Part shown: one piece after another, positions 33,030-51,080 of the stretch
Numbering within the stretch: position 1 is the first letter of the stretch
Layout: each line of letters starts with the position of its first letter
Assembly: GCF_000504285.1 (NCBI RefSeq)
Contig: NZ_KI632511.1
Span: 1,299,372 to 1,363,371 of the forward strand
Reading direction: 5' to 3'
Origin: Actinospica robiniae DSM 44927
Lineage (GTDB): Bacteria; Actinomycetota; Actinomycetes; Streptomycetales; Catenulisporaceae
DNA length: 64,000 bases
Made by a program: the position numbers and the translations under genes
The notes under the pieces: model-generated
The model's database searches: none
What the model saw: the letters and a program-made list of their open reading frames with translations, nothing else
What the model was told of the DNA's origin: nothing

Positions 33030-34166
33030 ATGGCCGATCCTCGATTGAGGCGAGAGTTCTTCACTCTCGGTGAACTCAGGAGGCGTGGGTTGGGCCTGGC
33101 TCTCGTCAAGAATCTCCGCGAAGCCCGTGCCCCGCTCGGCGCGGAGGAGATCGAGGAGTTCGAGACGGACGTGCTAGCCGGGTTCGTCCTGGCCCGGGCG
33201 GCGGCCGGGCTCGTCGACAGCACGATCCGCAACGACGTCAGCCACCTGGAACAGGTCAGGGGCTGGTTCGAGCGGCCCTTGTGGGATATGCAGCCCGCGG
33301 ATGCCGACGCCTACTTCGGCAAGGTACTGCGGCAGGCCAAGCCCTCGACCCGCACCAGCCGCGCCGGGGCGCTGAGCGTGTACTTCGAGTTCCTGGAGCT
33401 GCGACACAAGGTCGAGATCTACAATCTGACCGGCCGGGTCGTGGAGTGCCCGCTCGATGAGATCAACCGTCCTCGCGCGTCGGTCGAGCCACAGCTGCGC
33501 ATCCCACCGACCGAAGCCGAGATCGACGCGCTGTTCGCCGGCTGGCGCGGGGAGCTGGCGGTGTGCCGAAAGTTCGCCCCGACCGCCCGCAACTACGTTG
33601 CCGCCCGCCTGGCGGCCGATGTCGGGGTGCGTATCAACGAGATGCGCATGCTCGACCTCGACGACGTGCGCTGGGAGCTCGGCCACTTCGGCAAGCTCAA
33701 CGTCCGCCACGGCAAAGGCTCGCGTCGCCGAGGCCCCAAGCCCCGGCTGGTGCCGCTGATCGACGGCGCCGACCGCAACCTGCGCTGGTACATCGAGGAC
33801 GTCTGGGGCAACTTCGATGTCGACCACACCCTGCCCGGAGCACCGCTGTTCCCCTCCGAGCGCCGCGCGGGAGGCGGCGCGGGACTGCGGGCGACCGCGG
33901 ACGTCTTCCGCCGTTCGCTCGCCGAGGCGGCCGACGCCTTCCTACCGACATGGGCGGGCCGGCTGACCCCGCACGTGCTGCGGCATTTCTGCGCCAGCCG
34001 CTTGTACCTGGGCGGAATGAGCCTGTACGCGATCCAGGAGCTGCTCGGCCACGCCTGGACTGGAACCACGGCCCGCTACGTTCACGTCCACGCCGGACAC
34101 ATCGAGGAGGCCTGGGTGCGCGGCCAACAACGCGCCGACGAACGCTGGAAGGGGTTGACCTCGTGA
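33030..34166 (+). CDS. Tyrosine recombinase / integrase
   Basis: 378-residue site-specific recombinase. A SAM-like core-binding domain (about 45-140) precedes the catalytic domain with the complete set R201 (VGVRINEM), K229 (HGKGSRRRG), H315-x-x-R318 (PHVLRHFCASRLYLGG), H341 (LLGHAW) and nucleophile Y350 (TTARYVHVH). All required residues are present, so it should be active. First of three genes overlapping by 4 bases each. Probably moves or integrates a genetic element whose limits are not obvious here. Confidence 0.94.
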   Translation: MADPRLRREFFTLGELRRRGLGLALVKNLREARAPLGAEEIEEFETDVLAGFVLARAAAGLVDSTIRNDVSHLEQVRGWFERPLWDMQPADADAYFGKVLRQAKPSTRTSRAGALSVYFEFLELRHKVEIYNLTGRVVECPLDEINRPRASVEPQLRIPPTEAEIDALFAGWRGELAVCRKFAPTARNYVAARLAADVGVRINEMRMLDLDDVRWELGHFGKLNVRHGKGSRRRGPKPRLVPLIDGADRNLRWYIEDVWGNFDVDHTLPGAPLFPSERRAGGGAGLRATADVFRRSLAEAADAFLPTWAGRLTPHVLRHFCASRLYLGGMSLYAIQELLGHAWTGTTARYVHVHAGHIEEAWVRGQQRADERWKGLTS

Positions 34167-39527: not shown

Positions 39528-41150
<1,623 letters not shown>

Positions 41151-41234
41151 AGCAATGATGTGAGACCGTTCCGCTAATTCGGCTGACGCGTAACGGTATC
41201 GCCGCAGATCATTTGAGGTGGCGTGGCCTCCCCG

Positions 41235-41523: not shown

Positions 41524-43578
41524 TCAAAGCTGTCTCCGTGCTTCTCGCCAAGGAGCTCGACTTTCCCCGGACGAAGTGGCTGCCGCGATCGATCCGCGCG
41601 TTGACTCGGCGAGGGCCCGGGCGAGAGCAGGCCCAGTCTCGTCGAGGATGTGGATGAGCCGCCGATCGTATGGCGCTGGCATTGCTCCGGCTTTCAGGTA
41701 TGCGCGCGCGGTCAGCGACTCAAGCGAAGCGATGTGAGAGGCGGTCATCCGTTCGCAGGCGGCCGGGCTAGCCAAGGTGTCGCGAGCGCACAGCGCGTTG
41801 TCGAAGGTGATGATGTCCTCGGCAACGCCGGCGGCGAGCTGCGCGGCATCGCCCGGCGCGTTCGGCGTAGCCAGTCGCAGCGCCGTGAGAGTCAGGCGTG
41901 TCCTGAAGCTGGTTGTGGAGCGGTCGGGGTTGGCGCGGGCAAGCTGTACAGCGGCAAACAGCGCCGAGACGTCGTATGGTTTCGGCGGGTCTACCAATTG
42001 ATGGATGAGGTTGCGCAGGCAAGCCGCGACGGCATGCTCCCATGGTTGAGAGAGTTCGGTTGCGGCGAGCACAGCGAGCGCTTCTTTCGCATGTCCGTTG
42101 TGGGCCAAGGCGATGATACGGGTCTGGCGGGCCTCGCGAAGCAGTTCGGGACGCGAATCATAGATGGCGGCGTGTTCGGCGGCGGCGGTCCAGTCGTGCG
42201 CTGCCATCAGCGCTCGCGTGCCGTCCTCCAGCAGGACAGTGCGCAGCCAGGGCGTGGCCTTACCCAGGCCGCCGGGTCGGTCGGTGAAGCTGGCGAAGTT
42301 GATGGTTCGCCGGGTGATCGTGGTGCTGCCGGCGTGGTGGACGGCGTGGTCAAGCGCGACGAGCGCTTGGTGCGCGGCCCGGGGGTCTCCGCCGCGGCGG
42401 GTGAGGCGGATAAGATTGATCAATGGCTGCAGCGAGGCGATGGCGATACGACCAGAGACAGGCCAGGCTGCGTGGAAGATCTCGAACTGAGTCTCGCATA
42501 GTTCGACTGCGCGTTGCGTGAGGCCGCAGTCGGCATAGATGAGAGCTGCGAGATTCCATACTGTGCATGCGTTCTCGATCTGCTTTTCAGCCGGGGCGTC
42601 GGCCGCGAGTCGGTCGGCGAAGGTGGCGGCTTCGTCGATGCGCGAGGTGAGGTCAGCGGCGTGTAGGCGGGGTTCGCGGATCAGCGGGAAAGCGGCTGTG
42701 GTCGTGGCGAGGGCGTCGGCGGGTAGCGTCGGGTTGGGTGCTGCCGGTACCGGGTCTGGTTCGGTGTCGAGGATTGCGGCGCGGGCGGCGTGGGCGAGGA
42801 TGGCTTGGGTGCGGGCAGGCAGACCCATCCGGTTCCAGTGGAAGATCACGTGGTAACTCAGTACCGCGCGCAGGCCGCGCTCAAGGGCGCCGTGGTCGGC
42901 GAGGCGGCGTAGTTCGCGGCCGGTGGAGTGGAACGCTACGGCCCATGCGACGAGGTCCCGCTGGCCGAGCGCGGCGGGCTCGGCCGGAGCGCCCAACATT
43001 AGGGTGCGCATCGTTGCAGCGAGGTCGTGGATGTTCTCGGCCGCGACGTCTCGGGGCAGGGGGCGTTCGTGGCTGACGCGGTGCCACAGATCGCCGCGTT
43101 CGTACCATTCGAGGCCGGCACCGCGCAGCAGGAGCCCGCACAGCGTGAGGGAGATCTCGCGGCGTCCGGCTGCCGTGGTGTTCTTGAGGATTGCGTGGCT
43201 ATCGGCGAGAAAGAGCTGGTGTGATGCGGCCATGGCGGCGGGCCCGCCGAATGCGGCGGTTTCGGGTTCGTAGATTCCCTGATGCCAGGAGGCGAGGACT
43301 CCCTCTTCAACGAGCCGGTCGAGCGCGAGGGCGAGTTCATCCTGGAGGAGGCCGCGAGCCTGGTCTACGCGGATACGCCAGCAGGGGTGTTTACGAATGA
43401 ACCACCATGCAAGGTCGTGGCCGTTGGGAGAAGCGAGTAGCGGGGCGAGGTGGGTGCGAGCATGGTCTTCCGCTTGAGACCAGTCAGCCCATTGCAGCGC
43501 GTAGTGAGCCCAGCGTGAGGCTTCGATGTCGCCTGGGCCTGTGGCAGCGGCTAGTTGATCAGTAGGCATGTGTCCCAT
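41524..43578 (-). CDS. Thiopeptide-type (SpaB_C-like) biosynthesis protein fused to helical repeats
   Basis: 684 residues. Residues about 20-250 match the SpaB_C/thiopeptide-type bacteriocin domain that in LanB enzymes eliminates glutamate from modified Ser/Thr: WFIRKHPCWRIRVDQARG, GIYEPETAAFGG, LFLADSHAIL. The following 430 residues are helical and TPR-like (for example LAALIYADCGLTQRAVELCE and AHNGHAKEALAVLAAT). A complete SpaB_C domain already exists in the adjacent LanB, so this second one is unexplained. It starts 28 bases inside the LanC end (ATG 43578; 43569 also possible). Could be a partner eliminase, a leader-binding scaffold or a further tailoring enzyme. Confidence 0.85.
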   Translation of the reverse strand: MGHMPTDQLAAATGPGDIEASRWAHYALQWADWSQAEDHARTHLAPLLASPNGHDLAWWFIRKHPCWRIRVDQARGLLQDELALALDRLVEEGVLASWHQGIYEPETAAFGGPAAMAASHQLFLADSHAILKNTTAAGRREISLTLCGLLLRGAGLEWYERGDLWHRVSHERPLPRDVAAENIHDLAATMRTLMLGAPAEPAALGQRDLVAWAVAFHSTGRELRRLADHGALERGLRAVLSYHVIFHWNRMGLPARTQAILAHAARAAILDTEPDPVPAAPNPTLPADALATTTAAFPLIREPRLHAADLTSRIDEAATFADRLAADAPAEKQIENACTVWNLAALIYADCGLTQRAVELCETQFEIFHAAWPVSGRIAIASLQPLINLIRLTRRGGDPRAAHQALVALDHAVHHAGSTTITRRTINFASFTDRPGGLGKATPWLRTVLLEDGTRALMAAHDWTAAAEHAAIYDSRPELLREARQTRIIALAHNGHAKEALAVLAATELSQPWEHAVAACLRNLIHQLVDPPKPYDVSALFAAVQLARANPDRSTTSFRTRLTLTALRLATPNAPGDAAQLAAGVAEDIITFDNALCARDTLASPAACERMTASHIASLESLTARAYLKAGAMPAPYDRRLIHILDETGPALARALAESTRGSIAAATSSGESRAPWREARRQL

Positions 43579-44774
43579 CCGGTGCTCGGTGCGGCGCGGT
43601 GTGCCGCTGCGGTCAGAGCGAGGGCGAACCCGGCATCGCCTTCGAGCAGTCCCGGGTCCCGGCCTGGCGATCGTTCGTGGGCGACTTCACCGAGTTCGTG
43701 GGCAACGGCGTCGACGGCGGCATCCAGCTTCGGGTCGGCGACGTCGAGCGCAGCGCGTAGTCCTGTCATGTAGATGCCGGCCCAGCCGTGGCAAAGGCCC
43801 GGATCGGTCAGGCGCCGGTGGGTGGCGGCGTCTTCGAGCACGAGGGCGAGCATTTGCTGGGCCTGCTCCTGCCTGGCGGAGTCGTCGAGGGCGATGGCGG
43901 CGATCTGTTGGGCGCGGGCGATGCCGGGTGTGCCGTAGCACCAACTGGGCCTGCCGGGGCCGGCCTGGGTGGTTCGGCCGGTGGTGAGTTCCTCGTACGT
44001 GAGCCACTGTGGCCACCACGGTCCGCGCTCGCTTGGTTGTTCCCACCGGTCGAGGAAGGCGCAGATGCGGGAGATCGCTTGGAGCTGCCCGGGCACGCTG
44101 ATGCCGCGGCGGGCGGTGCCGGCAAGCAGGAGTAAAACGCCGGTGATGCCGTGGGCGGCGCCGAGATTGGCGTGTCCGGTGGCGAAGTCTGGGGATTGGC
44201 GACGGTGCGGGTCGTGCCCGACCCACCAGCCCGGCACAGCGACTCCACTGACGTGGAGCGGGCGGGTGAGGGCGACGAGGTGGGTGAGGACGCGTTCGAG
44301 AGTGTTTCCGGCTGGGTCGCGGCGGGCCAGGAGGGCTCCGATGCCGGTGAGTCCGAAGAAGATGTCGTACTCTCGGAAAGCTGCGGGCTTTCCGGCTTCG
44401 AGTCGCTGGGTGGCAGCGGCGACGCGTCGGTGGGCGAGGTCTTGGACGTGCCGGTCGAGGTCGGTCAGGGCGGCGGCGTAGCGTTCGGATGCGGTGTCGA
44501 GGGCGAAGGTGAGTGCGCAGATGCCGAGGTAGAGCCCGGTGGTTTCGGCGGCCGAGACGGGGTTGGCGGCTGCGGCTTTGAGCCAGGTGTGCGCGCTGTC
44601 CCAACTGTCCAAGCCCGCCCGAGCGCGCTCGCTGTGGAGCAGGCTGATCCCCACGGGCCCCTTGGTCAGGGAGCTGGCGAGCCAGGGCTCGCCGGGTGGC
44701 GGCGGTGTAGGGGTGGACAGGCTGCGGGCGATCTCTTCGGCGCGGTGCGCGAGGGCCGCTGTGCCGGCAGGCAA
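43551..44774 (-). CDS. lanC: LanC-type lanthionine cyclase
   Basis: 407 residues. Zinc enzyme that adds Cys thiols to dehydrated Ser/Thr to form (methyl)lanthionine rings. The alpha/alpha toroid repeats are visible (GLYLGICALTFAL, FFGLTGIGALLARR, GAAHGITGVLLLLAG), with zinc ligands Cys in PSWCYGTPG and Cys-His in GLCHGWAGIY. The start is a TTG at 44774, one base after the LanB stop, with AGGA 9 bases upstream, so it is presumably translated by coupling. Confidence 0.93.
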   Translation of the reverse strand: MPAGTAALAHRAEEIARSLSTPTPPPPGEPWLASSLTKGPVGISLLHSERARAGLDSWDSAHTWLKAAAANPVSAAETTGLYLGICALTFALDTASERYAAALTDLDRHVQDLAHRRVAAATQRLEAGKPAAFREYDIFFGLTGIGALLARRDPAGNTLERVLTHLVALTRPLHVSGVAVPGWWVGHDPHRRQSPDFATGHANLGAAHGITGVLLLLAGTARRGISVPGQLQAISRICAFLDRWEQPSERGPWWPQWLTYEELTTGRTTQAGPGRPSWCYGTPGIARAQQIAAIALDDSARQEQAQQMLALVLEDAATHRRLTDPGLCHGWAGIYMTGLRAALDVADPKLDAAVDAVAHELGEVAHERSPGRDPGLLEGDAGFALALTAAAHRAAPSTGWDTCLLIN

Positions 44775-44775
44775 T

Positions 44776-47751
44776 TCAGTGTTCCTGTCGTCGGGTCAGG
44801 CTCAGCGCGGTGGCCCGGGCGAGGCGTTCGGTGACGCGTTCGGTCGCCGGGTCGACGCGGACGGCACGTACGTGGTGCTGGTGGAGCAGAGTGCGGGCGA
44901 CGTCGAGCGGATTGCGCTGGGCGGCGACGGTCTCGCGGTACCGGTGCAGTGCGGCGCTGCGCTCGCGCCAGGCCGTGCCGAGTTGCTCGCCATGGGGCAG
45001 TGCGGCAAGGGCGGCGGCGCCGTCGACTGGGTCGGTCAGGGCGAAGGCCTGCTCGCGCAGTGAACCCGGCAGTCGTTCGCCCGTGCGCGGCAGCTGCTCG
45101 AGCAGCCAGGTGCGTGCCTCGCGCTCGGAATCGGCTAGGGCGGTGATGATGGAGAGCATGCCGGCCGCGGCCAGGGCTTGGCGGTGTACGCCTTCGGAGC
45201 GGGCGGAAGTGATTTGGGCGAGGGCCGCATCCGTGTCAGCCGCGAAGACTTCTTCGGCCGCATCGGCTGCCGGCCCGTACCCGTATCGCCCAGTTTGTGG
45301 CTGGTAGCTGGCGAGGGTCAGGCCAGCAGCGATGCCGGCGCGCTCAAGTCCCTGGGCGAAGGTGCTGACCGAGGCCGCCGCATCACCGTATGCGGCGGGG
45401 TGGGTAAGTCTGAGGTAGATGCTGAGGTGCTGGTCAGCCTCGGGCCGCGCCATCTCGCGGTGGCGGTTGAACCACCAGCGTTCCAAGCCGGGCAGGAACG
45501 CGGTCAGTAGCGGCAGGTGGTCGGTGAGCAGTTCGTCGTATCGGGTCGGGTGGGCATGTATGCGGGCGTGCAGGACGCTGCCTGTGCCCGGGAACCGGGG
45601 TTCGGAGCGCAGTGTCAGGGTCGCGGGGGCCGGTCTGGCCGGGCGGGTGAGGGTGAGTGGGATGAGCAGCTCGTGAGCGCGCCCGATCCAGCCGAGTTGC
45701 TCCGGTTCGACAGCTTCGCGCAGCTCGATCTGTGCTCGTGCCGCCAGGCGGGTGCGCAGCACGAGTCGGTGGGTGCGGTGATCCAGGTCGAGCGGAAGAC
45801 GCCGGTCATCCTCGCAGATGGCAACGTGTTGCGGGACCTGCCAGCGGTTGCGCCAGACCCCGAACGCGTTCTCCCACTCGCGGGTGGAGGCGGCGCGGCC
45901 GGGCAGGTCTTTGACGTGCAGGAGCCAGCGTGCTGGGGCGAGCACGGTGCGTCGGTAGCGCACTCGGGGGAGGTGTGGAAGGCGTGCGGCTGCGCCGAAG
46001 TCGAAGGCCTTGTATACGGCGCAGCGCGCTGTGGTCAGTTCGGAGAGGAGCCGGGCGAGTGGTGGGGTCTGGACTCCTGCTTGCAGGGCGTGGGTGACGC
46101 GGGGTTCGATGACGCGCCCGGTGGGTGCGTGGATGAGGTAGAGGCTGCGCGCGTCCGCGGTCACCGCCAAGTCGGCGGGCAGGATCACATTCGGGCCCGG
46201 CGGGCGGTGCTCGCCGAGGGAGATCACATGCGGAAGCAGTTCGGAGGTGCGGGTGAGGTTCTCGTTCGAGCGTTTGCGCGGAGCGAAGGAGAGTTGGGCG
46301 GTTAGTGCCTCTTCGTCGTGGGCCACGTACGTCGCGGCCAGCTGCTCGCGGTCGTCAGCCTCGAGCAGGTGGGCGAAGCGGCCGGCCATGCTGCTGCCGG
46401 GCCGCGGAGCCCCTGTGATCGTGAGTTGGAAGGCGCCGCGCACCAGCTCGCCCACGCAGGTGGCGCGCACCTCGACGCAGATCTCTGTCCGCGGCGGATA
46501 CATGATCTCGCCTGCGGCTGCCAGGTCGGCGATCACGGCCGGTGTCAGGTCAATCTCGCTGCCCGCCTCAAGCTGGGTGCGTTGGACGAGTTCGAGGATC
46601 GCCTCATCGCGCGGGGCGAGCTGGCGCGGTGCGCGTTCGTAGGCGGAAGCCAAATACCCGGCCGGGTAGCCGAGGCCTGCGTCGCCGACGAGCTCAAGTA
46701 ACGGCACGAGGGCGCCGGTGCCGTAGGTGCTGCGGAATCGGCGGTGGTAGTCGCGCCAAGCCGGGTAGCCGACGGGGTGTGGTGACAGGCGGCACAGCAG
46801 CTCGGCCGCTTCGCTCGCCTCTTCGAGTACGGCATCGGGCAGCGCTATCTCTCCGTCCAGAGCAGTGTTGATCATCAGGCTGTCCGGCGGTGCAGTTCCG
46901 TACTCGATCGCCTCCTGCATCCGGCTGATCTGTTCGACGGGTCTCGTACGCGCTTGGATCAGCGCATTGCTGAGGTGCCCGAGCGGGTCGGGTTCGGTGG
47001 CGGGCGCGCGCAGACCGGTGAGCAGGAAGCCCGCAGCGATCAGTTCGCACAGCAGCGCGTCGATGCGCTCGCGCGGTGCTGCCGGGAACCGGGCCGCGAC
47101 CTGCGCGCGAACGAACCGGTAGGAGCGCGGCGTGGAGGCCGATTCGAGCACTGCGCGCACCGGCGGGGTCAGGCGAGTGGATACCTCCACGGGCGCTCGG
47201 TCCAGATCGGCGTGCTCGACCGGCGGGCCCGGGATGACGCAGCGGCCAGCGCGTATGCTCGCCGCGCTGTGAGCGACGACGGGGACGCGCTCGAGGATCG
47301 AGGGCTGCTGTTCGAGTTCGCTGATGGTCCGCGAGAGCCAGGCCGCGTCTACACGGGCCGCGTAGGTGTGTTTGCCGGTCCAGGTCACACTCGCACACGG
47401 TGCAGTGCGGACGAACGCGGTCCCGGCGAACATGCCGAAGGGTGTGGCCCGCCCGCTCCAACGCAGCAGGTAGGACGCGAGTGAGAGCCCGGCTCGGCGC
47501 ACATGCTCGGGTGCCGGGTCATCGGCGTCCCGCAGCTGCTCGATTTGTGCCGCGAGTGCGGGGCTGGCGTGGGTGATGGCTGCTTGTACCTGCTCGCGCT
47601 GCCAGGTCGCGTTGATCCATCGCAGGGCGCGGGCATGCTCGGAGAGATCGTCGAGGGCAAGGTCGCCGGGCAGTTCGAGGCCGCCGGGATCGGTGCTGGC
47701 GCGCAGCAGTGCCACGCCGTGGTGGCGGTATGTCGTCGGCCGCCTGGCCAT
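44776..47751 (-). CDS. lanB: LanB lantibiotic dehydratase (full length)
   Basis: 991 residues, class I dehydratase. The glutamylation domain (about 40-650) includes LLRWSGRATPFGMFAG, typical of LanB N-termini, and uses glutamyl-tRNA to activate Ser/Thr. The SpaB_C elimination domain (about 720-990) has GTGSVLHARIHAHPTRYDEL, WWFNRHREMARPEADQHLSI and the HPAAYGDAAASVSTFAQGLE helix. Length is normal for a fused enzyme. ATG at 47751 follows GGAGGAGCG. It lies 67 bases after the precursor gene. Confidence 0.95.
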   Translation of the reverse strand: MARRPTTYRHHGVALLRASTDPGGLELPGDLALDDLSEHARALRWINATWQREQVQAAITHASPALAAQIEQLRDADDPAPEHVRRAGLSLASYLLRWSGRATPFGMFAGTAFVRTAPCASVTWTGKHTYAARVDAAWLSRTISELEQQPSILERVPVVAHSAASIRAGRCVIPGPPVEHADLDRAPVEVSTRLTPPVRAVLESASTPRSYRFVRAQVAARFPAAPRERIDALLCELIAAGFLLTGLRAPATEPDPLGHLSNALIQARTRPVEQISRMQEAIEYGTAPPDSLMINTALDGEIALPDAVLEEASEAAELLCRLSPHPVGYPAWRDYHRRFRSTYGTGALVPLLELVGDAGLGYPAGYLASAYERAPRQLAPRDEAILELVQRTQLEAGSEIDLTPAVIADLAAAGEIMYPPRTEICVEVRATCVGELVRGAFQLTITGAPRPGSSMAGRFAHLLEADDREQLAATYVAHDEEALTAQLSFAPRKRSNENLTRTSELLPHVISLGEHRPPGPNVILPADLAVTADARSLYLIHAPTGRVIEPRVTHALQAGVQTPPLARLLSELTTARCAVYKAFDFGAAARLPHLPRVRYRRTVLAPARWLLHVKDLPGRAASTREWENAFGVWRNRWQVPQHVAICEDDRRLPLDLDHRTHRLVLRTRLAARAQIELREAVEPEQLGWIGRAHELLIPLTLTRPARPAPATLTLRSEPRFPGTGSVLHARIHAHPTRYDELLTDHLPLLTAFLPGLERWWFNRHREMARPEADQHLSIYLRLTHPAAYGDAAASVSTFAQGLERAGIAAGLTLASYQPQTGRYGYGPAADAAEEVFAADTDAALAQITSARSEGVHRQALAAAGMLSIITALADSEREARTWLLEQLPRTGERLPGSLREQAFALTDPVDGAAALAALPHGEQLGTAWRERSAALHRYRETVAAQRNPLDVARTLLHQHHVRAVRVDPATERVTERLARATALSLTRRQEH

Positions 47752-47818
47752 CGCTCCTCCATGTCGCGCAGGTGGTGCCGGTGCGCCGCCTGGTTGCGGC
47801 GGCGCACCGGCGGGGTGG

Positions 47819-47977
47819 TCAGGACGGGTCGTCGGTGAAGGAGTTGCAGGAGCTGTCGTTGCCGGAGCAGGTGTTGCCGCAGCCGTCGTCGGTCGGGCAG
47901 TCCATCAGTCCGTCCGGGGTCATGGCGACGACCACGCCGAGGTCCAGCGAGAAGTCGTCGTCGGTCGAGGGGTGCAT
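47819..47977 (-). CDS. lanA: FxLD-family lanthipeptide precursor
   Basis: 52-residue prepeptide. The leader contains FSLDLG (F9-S-L-D12), the signature of FxLD lanthipeptides and the expected LanB docking site. The core lies within about residues 18-52 and has four Cys (27, 33, 37, 44), Thr 20, 29, 36 and 48, Ser 38, 42, 43, 46 and 52, and is very rich in Asp, Asn and Gly. Up to four thioether rings are possible. Asp residues in the core are candidate substrates for the PIMT-like methyltransferase next door. ATG at 47977 has AAAGGG 7 bases upstream. It lies 35 bases after the methyltransferase and 67 before LanB. Confidence 0.93.
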   Translation of the reverse strand: MHPSTDDDFSLDLGVVVAMTPDGLMDCPTDDGCGNTCSGNDSSCNSFTDDPS

Positions 47978-48012
47978 GAGCAGGCCCTTTCTCTCGTGAA
48001 ACGGGATGGGTG

Positions 48013-49266
48013 TTACGCGTCCTGGCCGGCGGTCACCTCCGGCCAGGAGATCAGGACCCGGCGGTGCTTCTTGTCTACGACCCGCCCGCCGGGAAGCTGG
48101 TCGTCGGGGGTTGCCGCCGGGTAGAGCGCGAAGCTCGCGCCCGTACCGCGGCCGCGCAGGCACTTGGACCAGATGCGCACCTGACCGGCCATGTCCTCGG
48201 CCAGCGCGTCGCGTCCGGGGCCGTAGGCGTGCACGCCGAACTCGACCTCGTCCGGGTCCTGGCTCGCCCGCGAGGTGAGGTAGGCAAATGAGCCGCCCTC
48301 GACCGCGGCCATCGCGAACGCCTTCTTGCCCGGCAACGTGATCAGGCCGCTGTCCTTGTCGCGGTCGAGGCTGAGCACGCAGAACCCGTCCATGGCGGTG
48401 GCCATGTACATCTCGATGCCCTGGAGCAGTTCCTGGCGGCCGATGTGCGCGCCGGTCCACACCTCGGCCCGCTCCGTGCCCACCGCTCCGGCGAGCGCGT
48501 CCGGGTCCGCGGGGGCGGCGTCGTCGAACCGGAGCCTGATCTCGCCGCCGGCCAGCACGATCGTGTGCGCCTCGTGGGCGCCCTCGCCCTGCATGGGCAC
48601 GAATCCGAAGATCCGCTCGGACACGCTCTCCAGGTGGTTGCCGCGGTCCTCGAACGCGATCACGCGGGTCAGGCCGCGCACCCGCAGCGGCACCAGCAGC
48701 CGGCCGCCCTCGGCCAGCTGCTCCGTCCACGCCGGCGGGATGTCCCACGCGCCGACCGTGACCAGGATCCTGTCGTAGGGCGCGCCGTCCGGGAGACCGG
48801 CGTCGGCATCGGCGAGCACGACCCTGACCCGGTCGTACCCGGCCGCCGCGAGCATCCCGCGGGCCCGGTCGGTCACCATCGGGTCGATATCGACCGTGGT
48901 CACCTCGCCGGCCTCGCCGACCAGCTCGGCGATCAGCGCGGCGTTGTACCCGCCCGACCCGATCTCCAGCACGCGCATGCCCGGGGCGATCTGCGCCTGC
49001 TCGAGCATGAACGCCTGCACGTGCGGCTCCGAGACCGAGCTCATCGCTCGCCCGTCCGGACCACGCTTGGTCACCACCGACGTGTACGCGCCATAGGCCT
49101 CGGCCAGTGCGACCTCCGGGGTGAACAGGTGCCGCGGCACCGCCCCCACCGCCGCCGCGACCGCCCCGCTCGTGATCACCCCGTCATCGGTCAGCGTCTT
49201 GACCAGCGCCGCGCGCAGCGCCTTGGCCTCAGCCGCTTCGTCCGTCATCTCGATCACATCCGTCAT
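48013..49266 (-). CDS. PIMT-like methyltransferase, FxLD lanthipeptide system
   Basis: 417 residues. The N-terminal 230 residues are an L-isoaspartyl O-methyltransferase-like domain: VPRHLFTPE, SSVSEPHVQAFMLEQ, SAM motif VLEIGSGGYNAAL (about 99-111), and VTVGAWDIPPAWTEQL. The C-terminal 180 residues are specific to methyltransferases of FxLD systems. Family knowledge: related enzymes in class I lanthipeptide clusters methylate Asp, leading to succinimide and isoAsp in the product. Start 49266 or 49248. It directly precedes the precursor gene. Confidence 0.92.
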   Translation of the reverse strand: MTDVIEMTDEAAEAKALRAALVKTLTDDGVITSGAVAAAVGAVPRHLFTPEVALAEAYGAYTSVVTKRGPDGRAMSSVSEPHVQAFMLEQAQIAPGMRVLEIGSGGYNAALIAELVGEAGEVTTVDIDPMVTDRARGMLAAAGYDRVRVVLADADAGLPDGAPYDRILVTVGAWDIPPAWTEQLAEGGRLLVPLRVRGLTRVIAFEDRGNHLESVSERIFGFVPMQGEGAHEAHTIVLAGGEIRLRFDDAAPADPDALAGAVGTERAEVWTGAHIGRQELLQGIEMYMATAMDGFCVLSLDRDKDSGLITLPGKKAFAMAAVEGGSFAYLTSRASQDPDEVEFGVHAYGPGRDALAEDMAGQVRIWSKCLRGRGTGASFALYPAATPDDQLPGGRVVDKKHRRVLISWPEVTAGQDA

Positions 49267-49330
49267 CTCGTTGTCAGTTCCTCTTCGTCGATCAGTACGT
49301 CAGCCGGGGCGCCCGGCGCGTGACAGGCAA

Positions 49331-49546
49331 TCAGCCCCCGCCCACAGCCGGGCGATGCGCCACGCCGGGCAGCCCCGGTATTCGCGCTGATCCCGGCACA
49401 GTGCTTTCTCGCGTGCTGGTTGCTCGGCTTACGACGGGTCGGTTCGCGCCCGGCGCCAGGACGGAGTGCTCAGATCCGCTGCTGGCGCAGCAACCAACCG
49501 TGAGCAGCAGGCCCGCTGCGACGAGCGAGGCGAGAGTTCGCGTCAT
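49331..49546 (-). CDS. Small lipoprotein coupled to the CPBP protease gene
   Basis: 71 residues. MTRTLASLVAAGLLLTVGC gives a short lipoprotein signal with lipobox LTVGC (second Cys follows), and the remainder is a Ser/Pro/Arg-rich unstructured tail. The ATG at 49546 overlaps the protease TGA by 4 bases, the main reason to regard it as real. Placed between a membrane protease and the modification genes, it is a candidate immunity lipoprotein of the LanI kind (inference). No family recognised. Confidence 0.6.
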   Translation of the reverse strand: MTRTLASLVAAGLLLTVGCCASSGSEHSVLAPGANRPVVSRATSTRESTVPGSARIPGLPGVAHRPAVGGG

Positions 49547-50787
49547 GCGGCAGCGGCCTGTGCGGAAACGGCTAAGCGGCCGCGTCGCACTATCGCGCCG
49601 ACCAGCCAGAACAGCAGGACTGCGCTCATGCACATGACGATCAGTTGGCCGTATTGGGTCCACGTGTTGCCGGAGAGCCAGCCTTCGCGCACCCCAGCCC
49701 ACAGGATCACGTCGTAGACGAAGTGACAGGCGATCAGCGGCGCGAGCCTGCGCCAACGCAGCAGCGCCCACGCGTTCACACCGGAGAACAGGCCCATCGC
49801 GAACCCGGGCGGGCCGTAGTACAGATGCATCAGCACCCGTAAAAGGGCTGCCGTCGCGACGATCGCCCACGGCCTGGTGGCGAGGCGTGCCAGCGTGAGC
49901 ACGATGGCGGCGAACACCAGCTCCTCGGCGAATGCGTTCGCGGCGTAGTTCGCGAGCAATGCCATCACGGACCTGAAGGAGCCGAGGCCGGGGTGGCCGG
50001 AGCAGCCGCACCCACCGGTGCTGGCATAGCCGTCCCGGTACGCCGCGGCCAGCCTGCCAGCCATGGCAGTCGGGCCTCGATCAACCATCCACTCGAGGAT
50101 CAGATTCGCGACCGCGGGAGTACCCGCGGCGAATCCCAGCATGCTCACCGCAGCGATCTTTGCGGCGCGGCCGACATGAGCGTGGCCTGGTGCGCGCCCG
50201 AGAACGCCGGTCGACTCGGCGGGACACAGCAGCACGAACCAGATAGCCGTGGCGAACGCCTCAACGCAGACGAACGCAGCATCGCTGCCCTGACGATCAA
50301 GGCGGATCGCGGCCCACGCCGCACCTGCGCCGCCGGCCAGAACAAGGGCTGCCATCAGCCACACGGGAACCTGTGCCAACCGGGCGGGAAGCGGGTATCC
50401 GCAGTTGCGGCGCCAGACCAGTTCCGACCCGCCGTAGAGCAGGGCCGCAGTGATGGTGTAGACGGCCCATGTACTGGAGTGGATCTGGACATCGTAAAGC
50501 AGGTTCGGGCTCACACCGCCGAGCACGAATCCGGTCACCAGGACCGATTTGATGACGCCAGGGCCGAAGATGGCGGCAAAGACACCGAAGGCCAGCAGTG
50601 CTGGGATACGGTCCGGATTGGTCGTGGGCTGCGCCGTATGCACCAAGGGCCGACCAGAGGGCTGCCAAGCCTTCGGTGCCGGAGGATCCGGGAACGGAGT
50701 CAATGGGGCCGCATCCGGCAACTTGCCATCGGCTGGAACTATGGCGAAGGAGATCTCGGCTTCGTCGCCGCTGAGAGGGCTAGACAT
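49543..50787 (-). CDS. CPBP-family intramembrane metalloprotease
   Basis: 414 residues, about eight membrane segments after a 60-residue cytoplasmic Pro-rich tail. The Abi/CPBP motifs are present: E288-E289 (NAFAEELVF), H321 (LMHLYYG) and H355 with D359 (CHFVYD). Members act as prenyl-protein-type proteases, bacteriocin immunity proteins or leader-processing enzymes. No LanP or bifunctional LanT is found in the cluster, so this is the best candidate for leader removal or self-protection. ATG 50787 preferred; 50802 possible. A Cys-rich loop GGCGCSGHP (258-266) is unusual. Confidence 0.87.
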   Translation of the reverse strand: MSSPLSGDEAEISFAIVPADGKLPDAAPLTPFPDPPAPKAWQPSGRPLVHTAQPTTNPDRIPALLAFGVFAAIFGPGVIKSVLVTGFVLGGVSPNLLYDVQIHSSTWAVYTITAALLYGGSELVWRRNCGYPLPARLAQVPVWLMAALVLAGGAGAAWAAIRLDRQGSDAAFVCVEAFATAIWFVLLCPAESTGVLGRAPGHAHVGRAAKIAAVSMLGFAAGTPAVANLILEWMVDRGPTAMAGRLAAAYRDGYASTGGCGCSGHPGLGSFRSVMALLANYAANAFAEELVFAAIVLTLARLATRPWAIVATAALLRVLMHLYYGPPGFAMGLFSGVNAWALLRWRRLAPLIACHFVYDVILWAGVREGWLSGNTWTQYGQLIVMCMSAVLLFWLVGAIVRRGRLAVSAQAAAA

Positions 50788-50831
50788 CGAGGTCTTTCTC
50801 ATAAGAAGGGAAGGGATGTCAGTGCGCGCTG

Positions 50832-51080
50832 CTACGACGGCGGCGCGTCCTGTTCGACGGTGAGCAGCGCGCGTGCGGCCTTGGCCGGGATGCGGTAGCC
50901 CCGGCCCACGCGCACCGCCTCGAGCGTTTCGTCGCGCAACATCCGGTAGACCGTCATCTTCGACACCCGCAGCACCGTGGCGACTTCGGCCACGGTCAGG
51001 AACGCGAGATCACTCAGATCGATGGTCGAAGAGAACTGGACGGCTGTGGGCGCCGCCACCGGTGTCGTTGGTTCATTCAC
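50832..51080 (-). CDS. Excisionase-type HTH DNA-binding protein
   Basis: 82 residues. MerR/Xis-like helix-turn-helix: LTVAEVATVLRVSKMTVYRMLRD followed by a wing VRVGRGYRIPAKAA. GTG at 51080 is chosen because the upstream extension has no family features; GGGAA lies about 10 bases before it. It starts the lanthipeptide stretch, 44 bases before the protease gene, and is a likely cluster regulator. Confidence 0.85.
   Translation of the reverse strand: MNEPTTPVAAPTAVQFSSTIDLSDLAFLTVAEVATVLRVSKMTVYRMLRDETLEAVRVGRGYRIPAKAARALLTVEQDAPPS

Follow-up and report, generated by a model that had tools for sequence, protein, structure and literature searches.

When the dehydratase of a lanthipeptide cluster appears to have lost its own lyase site, which enzyme completes the dehydration, and what follows for the stereochemistry of the rings? 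The question is raised by a class I cluster of Actinospica robiniae DSM 44927 (genome of 9.92 Mb, one contig), which we analysed in a window of 64,000 nucleotides (contig NZ_KI632511.1, positions 1,299,372 to 1,363,371). The original prediction had proposed an FxLD lanthipeptide cluster at 41524-51080, consisting of an FSLD precursor, a PIMT-like methyltransferase, a LanB, a LanC and a thiopeptide-type protein. All five genes were recovered as open frames with family matches, all on the minus strand. Their positions in the window, and those of their domains, are listed below.

48013-49266, minus strand: PIMT-like O-methyltransferase of the LanSA type (TIGR04364, 536 bits against a cut-off of 320, positions 1-394 of 394 covered; PIMT structures also matched)
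47819-47977, minus strand: precursor peptide of 52 amino acids (aa) with an FSLD leader motif (TIGR04363, 43.4 bits against a cut-off of 30)
44776-47751, minus strand: full-length LanB, 991 aa (PF04738, 643 bits, and PF14028, 89 bits; MibB 5ehk, 279 bits)
45757-47601, minus strand: glutamylation domain of LanB, aa 51-665
44815-45570, minus strand: lyase domain of LanB, aa 728-979, altered
43551-44774, minus strand: LanC cyclase, 407 aa, TTG start (PF05147, 148 bits)
41524-43578, minus strand: 684-aa fusion protein, predicted syn-glutamyl lyase plus TPR-like domain (TIGR03891, 174.5 bits)
42772-43512, minus strand: predicted syn-glutamyl lyase domain, aa 23-269 (K63, R68, R70, E106, A109; signature from PMC9486935)
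41599-42726, minus strand: TPR-like alpha-solenoid domain, about aa 285-660

Alignments to MibB, NisB and NisC support the completeness that had been claimed for this class I gene set. The LanB retains R101, T103 and D135 at the places of NisB R87, T89 and D121, which we take to have roles in glutamylation. In the LanC, alignments to 2g02 and 8byk gave equivalents of all of D141, H212, R280, C284, C330 and H331 of NisC, which, in this numbering, we presume to be the metal and catalytic sites. The lyase domain of the LanB presents another picture. Set against the canonical anti-lyase site (NisB R784, R786, E823, R826 and H961), an alignment with MibB and a 23-sequence profile against NisB put S777 and Y779 at the two Arg positions and Q819 at E823; R822 and H957, the equivalents of R826 and H961, are retained, and H764 stands at the place of the active-site Tyr. 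Next to the lost Arg residues, at aa 765-775 (about 45427-45459), the LanB also has a few extra residues compared with the canonical LanBs of loci L136, L179 and L180. In NisB, R784 and R786 bind the gamma-carboxylate and are critical (PMC9486935), and the variants R786A, R826A and H961A glutamylate without elimination (PMC4979651). Because the gamma-carboxylate-binding Arg residues and E823 are gone, the anti-lyase domain of this LanB is predicted to be largely or wholly inactive. Loss of a catalytic residue in LanB or LanC had been named in advance as a sign against the pathway. The LanC sites are present, and the LanB formally fails on this point; the loss is probably made up for by a syn-lyase, so the pathway need not be dead.

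The candidate for this role is the 684-aa protein. The name thiopeptide-type protein is correct as a family label, but its residues indicate a syn-glutamyl lyase with a TPR-like domain attached. The match to the lyase half of LanB covers residues 23-269, and in an alignment of 23 sequences K63, R68, R70 and E106 were invariant and A109 nearly so. The published marks of syn-glutamyl lyases are a Lys replacing the anti-lyase Tyr and a hydrophobic residue replacing NisB R826 (PMC9486935). Both are found here, as K63 and A109, and the spacing of K63-R68-R70-E106 equals that of K46-R51-R53-E89 in CoiSA. Lys occupied the Tyr column in 122 of the 123 lyase pieces sampled; among the syn-lyase domains readable at all five site columns, the R786 equivalent was kept in 120 of 121 and a residue other than Arg stood at R826 in every one (121/121). 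H243 aligned with NisB H961 and the column held His in 105 of the 121; we did not use it as evidence, because the catalytic His is stated not to align in SptBb (PMC9011353). With these marks, the first ~275 residues are predicted to form a syn-glutamyl lyase of the SptBb/CoiSA type. SptBb makes (E)-dehydrobutyrine ((E)-Dhb; PMC9890492), and CoiSA(ED) together with a lyase-inactivated CoiB achieved elimination at all three Thr of CoiA1 (PMC9486935). Searched against the PDB as a whole, the 684-aa protein returned weak ribosomal L36 matches only.

We then asked how the state of the LanB lyase site relates to the presence of a syn-lyase in other genomes. Scanning genome contigs with the 684-aa protein as query gave 57 related loci, to which we added 20 regions around lyase matches and 60 around LanB matches from a search of 295 genomes. 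The five lyase-site columns were read in every cluster, and three states were distinguished: canonical (RRER), altered and no lyase domain. Two LanBs that keep one of the residues in question, L077 (QRHRH, R786 kept) and L132 (GWERQ, E823 kept), were both counted as altered. For 63 readable clusters found with the LanB query (L119-L178 with L105-L108, L110, L111 and L116, minus the broken or cut L164, L166, L172 and L175), a same-strand syn-lyase accompanied 15/15 altered, 6/6 lyase-less and 32/42 canonical LanBs (one-sided Fisher p=0.0115, ignoring kinship). All six lyase-less LanBs stood beside a fusion of syn-lyase and methyltransferase. Counting lyases within 4 kb in L119-L178, broken loci included, gave 13/13 for altered and 29/39 for canonical LanBs. 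The absence of a lyase in the ten canonical clusters is based on 6.3-9.9 kb of downstream sequence. Two further canonical LanBs outside the 63 do not contradict the pattern: the only lyase-family gene of L179 lies on the opposite strand, and L180 is frameshifted, with the contig end ~2 kb further. L175 ('RR---'), a locus without a lyase, was left unclassed. In L166 (G231 contig 25) the LanB ends near the domain border, and LanC, methyltransferase and lyase were not matched in 11 kb; this locus fits no class and is either broken or a different kind of locus.

A quick LanB tree of 125 rows, built with the lyase domain excluded and without the frameshift-split LanBs of L061 and L071 (also left out of the precursor counts below), placed 67 altered full-length LanBs, that of the window included, in one group with a Shimodaira-Hasegawa-like approximate likelihood ratio test (SH-aLRT) support of 100. 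Site loss in this clade is of varying degree, and each sampled cluster has a syn-lyase. L132 was a separate altered case, and the lyase-less LanBs formed a group of ten and a pair. The sample thus contains at least three separate cases in which LanB lost its own lyase or had it altered, each of them beside a syn-lyase.

These observations point to a division of labour, for which we have reasonable but not high confidence: the LanB would mainly glutamylate and the syn-lyase would eliminate, so that the two half-reactions of dehydration would be split between proteins in a class I cluster of the olv/coi kind. Judging from its family, the LanB would bind the FSLD leader and move glutamate from Glu-tRNA to Thr and Ser of the core, its own anti-lyase domain being largely or wholly silent. 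The stand-alone syn-lyase, by analogy with SptBb and CoiSA, would then remove the glutamate and convert Thr to (E)-Dhb, with the fused TPR-like domain as a putative docking or peptide-binding partner. The LanC would close three rings (T29-C33, T36-C44 and C37-S46), those derived from Thr29 and Thr36 being D-allo-L-methyllanthionines. As in the case of OlvSA, the PIMT-like enzyme would methylate Asp31 within the TxDGC ring, leading to an aspartimide and further to isoaspartate (isoAsp). Whether this holds for the entire clade is evenly balanced in our judgement: there, a large actinobacterial group of full-length LanBs would be glutamyl transferases with a dead lyase domain, a stand-alone syn-lyase (sometimes beside or fused to a TPR-like partner) would carry out all eliminations, and the methyllanthionines would all be D-allo-L.

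Predictions of ring stereochemistry are made from lyase type, and this stereochemistry is considered decisive for lanthipeptide activity (PMC9486935). If the reading is true, a whole clade of FxLD clusters has been mis-predicted, its methyllanthionines originating from (E)- and not (Z)-Dhb, which would contradict the published view that every full-length LanB is predicted to be an anti-lyase (PMC9486935). The cluster would then be the natural counterpart of the CoiB-H994A experiment, and its cyclase must accept (E)-Dhb where CoiC does not. For production attempts there is a practical side: heterologous expression without the 684-aa protein would stall at the glutamylated peptide. In the main texts of the open-licence literature that was searched, we found no report of full-length LanBs with a lost lyase site. 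As far as this literature shows, what is new is that a clade of full-length LanBs has lost the anti-lyase site, together with the stereochemistry predicted from it.

Several points weigh against this division of labour. Cyclisation by CoiC was incomplete when the syn-lyase alone was active (PMC9486935); the LanC here would therefore have to differ from CoiC. CoiSA with R51A, R53A or E89A still gave threefold dehydration (PMC9486935), so that a syn-lyase, at least, can sometimes survive losing these residues. Behind the co-occurrence of altered LanB and syn-lyase stand four state changes in the tree, a small number of independent events, and the count over all loci, 73 of 73 altered LanBs with a syn-lyase, is not independent evidence because most altered LanBs come from loci found with the lyase query. 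The altered domains retain R826 in 65/73 and H961 in 68/73. Relative to the rest of LanB, the divergence of the lyase domain was 1.14 for altered and 1.04 for canonical LanBs; the altered domain thus still looks constrained and may keep some activity or a structural role. Finally, in the predicted structures, the fold alone does not separate a lyase from a [4+2] enzyme.

CoiSA mutant activity, the cyclisation limit of CoiC and the conservation of the altered domain therefore keep alive a dual-lyase cluster like coi, in which the altered LanB lyase would perform some anti-eliminations with a changed binding mode and the syn-lyase the rest, giving mixed stereochemistry. In its favour, most altered LanBs retain the R826 and H961 equivalents, and coi needs both lyases for correct dehydration and cyclisation (PMC9486935). 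We nevertheless consider it unlikely. Both gamma-carboxylate Arg residues and E823 have been replaced by many different residues in altered LanBs, suggesting lost constraint at the site, and other clusters dispense with the LanB lyase domain entirely.

Much less probable still is that the 684-aa protein catalyses a step other than elimination, such as a thiopeptide-like [4+2] reaction, with little or no dehydrated product. Walker et al. suggested a different modification as a possibility (PMC7268733), and our AlphaFold2 model of the lyase domain (predicted local distance difference test score, pLDDT, 86.1) gave Z 15.0-17.1 for PbtD/TbtD-type pyridine synthases and [4+2] aza-cyclases, the best of these tying with the lowest dehydratase row (17.9). 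However, the LanB dehydratases MadB, MibB and NisB filled the five top fold rows (Z 17.9-19.3), and enzymes of the predicted type, SptBb and CoiSA(ED), have been shown to eliminate glutamate. With the fold undecisive, it was the syn-lyase marks that led us to reject a thiopeptide-type [4+2] enzyme. Least credible of all is one heteromeric centre to which R822 and H957 of the LanB lyase domain and K63, R68 and R70 of the syn-lyase would both contribute, which the complementary residues might suggest (R784, R786 and E823 equivalents in one domain, R826 in the other), but the syn-lyase residues are mostly the same beside a canonical LanB or a LanB without lyase domain, and SptBb functions with SptBa, described as the glutamyl transferase of a split dehydratase (PMC9890492).

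Compared with known systems, the cluster is a member of the lanthimiditide (olv/coi) group, so that calling it FxLD is nothing new in itself. The remark that few FxLD products have been characterised is fair but understates the detailed studies of modified OlvA and CoiA1 (PMC13001092, PMC9486935). In coi of Streptomyces coelicolor A3(2), CoiB is described with a canonical lyase domain and CoiSA joins the lyase to the methyltransferase, whereas here the LanB site is altered and the syn-lyase has a TPR-like domain as its fusion partner; the core also differs from CoiA1 in an extra Cys (C27) and in a Ser where CoiA1 has Thr57 (PMC9486935). Of the two lyases that mark coi-type dual-lyase clusters, the syn-lyase is present and the canonical LanB lyase is not. 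The olv system resembles the cluster in methyltransferase type, in the Asp target within a thioether ring and in precursor type (PMC13001092, PMC9486935); OlvA also has a Cys near the core N-terminus that is missing in CoiA1. Unlike the present cluster, olv lacks the additional lyase of coi and depends on OlvB, which is classed among the anti-lyases. SapT is similar in that a syn-lyase is expected to be the only lyase and D-allo-L-methyllanthionine is predicted. By contrast, SptBa is a separate glutamyl transferase, while the LanB here keeps an altered lyase domain, and the excerpts of PMC9011353 and PMC9890492 name no PIMT-like enzyme among the spt genes.

The precursor reads MHPSTDDDFSLDLGVVVAMTPDGLMDCPTDDGCGNTCSGNDSSCNSFTDDPS, and AGAAAGGG stands ahead of its ATG. 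Besides the FSLD leader it has a core with four Cys, C27-P-T29-D-D31-G-C33-G-N-T36-C37-...-C44-N-S46, in which T29-D-D31-G-C33 is the TxDGC motif known for lanthipeptide clusters with a PIMT-like enzyme (PMC10787088, PMC13001092). No PDB sequence match was obtained for the precursor at E up to 10. The rings of CoiA1 are T43-C47, T50-C55 and C51-T57 (PMC9486935), to which we infer T29-C33 (around Asp31), T36-C44 and C37-S46 as parallels, with C27 extra. The proposed maximum of four rings is therefore reasonable given four Cys; three would follow from homology to CoiA1. The cluster has the PIMT-homologous methyltransferase that marks lanthimiditide clusters, and the isoAsp step that had been anticipated is supported as probable: Asp31 of the TxDGC motif would be converted to aspartimide/isoAsp. 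Where the precursor was readable, a Cys two residues before the TxDGC Thr occurred in 71/77 syn-only, 3/6 anti-only and 0/30 dual-lyase clusters (L067, one of the six syn-only exceptions, is a mis-picked open reading frame; L043 and L054, with two LanBs, were excluded). On the tree this comes down to 3-4 independent pairs, with the opposite direction 0.7 times on average and no difference in 2.3. The pattern is a lead with too few independent pairs, and kinship may explain it.

The arrangement of the genes is compact. One base separates LanB and LanC, and the LanC gene shares 28 bases with that of the 684-aa protein. Methyltransferase, LanB, LanC and lyase kept this order in 53 of the 57 related loci, and a homologous precursor was present in 53 of the 57; the five-gene arrangement is therefore far from chance. 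Among the four exceptions to the order, L071 and L097 lack the methyltransferase alone, both being cut by contig ends, and L094 and L098 had no LanB match.

The remaining ~400 residues of the 684-aa protein matched no Pfam family. AlphaFold2 modelled them as an all-helical solenoid (pLDDT 87.9), with TPR proteins such as NprR, Rap and LGN as nearest folds at Z 10-13, a range where repeats may share merely a common arrangement. A PDB sequence search of this domain gave no match at E up to 10, and Foldseek gave none with E below 0.001. The TPR-like part is a separate gene directly 3' of the lyase in many relatives, and is fused to it in the window and ten relatives (three of the ten alike). In L119-L178 (LanB query) it was present in 31/47 loci with a syn-lyase and 0/13 without (3 of the 13 cut or broken), and is therefore linked to the syn-lyase, of which it is probably a docking or peptide-binding partner. 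L117 has the TPR-like part without LanB or lyase. We rejected the idea that this part is the sensor half of a helix-turn-helix (HTH)-TPR regulator: in stand-alone genes (e.g. L050, L051, L055 and L058) the match begins ~16-24 residues into open frames of ~390-400 residues, and there is therefore no room for an HTH.

The whole host genome has five PF14028 domains: this cluster carries two, a site at 6.92 Mb another two, and a site at 5.78 Mb the fifth. At the five site columns the two LanB-borne domains read SYQRH and SFQRH and the other three, of the syn type, RREAH, RREAI and RREAH; none of the five carries the full anti-lyase set. L100 (5772000-5790000), a cluster of a second type, has a 729-aa LanB open frame without lyase domain, a syn-lyase fused to a methyltransferase, a TPR-like gene and a precursor core CSTSDNCGSSCGSACTTS. 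At L101 (8213461-8214660) lies the fourth methyltransferase of the genome to score above the TIGR04364 cut-off (393 bits), with no LanB, LanC, lyase or TPR-domain match within the 17 kb fetched; this is perhaps another PIMT-type ribosomally synthesised and post-translationally modified peptide locus.

The proposed extent of 41524-51080 holds for the five genes, but its upstream end, 49543-51080, contains two genes that show no sign of conserved linkage:

49543-50802, minus strand: CPBP/Rce1-like membrane protein (PF02517, 37.7 bits)
50832-51080, minus strand: excisionase-type HTH gene

In single-sequence searches, a weak relative of the CPBP gene was found in 2 fetched loci only, leaving conserved linkage unsupported, and the HTH gene had a match in none of them. 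With relatives in 2 and 0 loci, neither was accepted as a core pathway part. The two loci (L047, L048) are two Catenulispora metagenome-assembled genome copies, alike in all gene measures, and the cluster of G012, a genome of the host's family, gave the same measures, which pointed to Catenulisporaceae as the probable host family. Mobility-type genes surround the cluster, the fourth being the HTH gene already listed, hinting at past mobility:

33030-34166: phage-type integrase
39528-40217: integrase-core gene
40088-41152: IS1380-like transposase open frame
50832-51080: excisionase-type HTH gene

At gathering thresholds, Rfam had no match anywhere in the window. The plus strand carries an HTH regulator followed by a Flavoprotein-family gene (PF02441; 55275-57089), a family that we take to be that of LanD decarboxylases, about 6 kb away from the minus-strand methyltransferase gene. 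On the other side, 7267-38284 of the window holds ATP-binding cassette (ABC) uptake genes and several carbohydrate-active enzymes, probably secreted, that have ricin-type or CBM2 domains.

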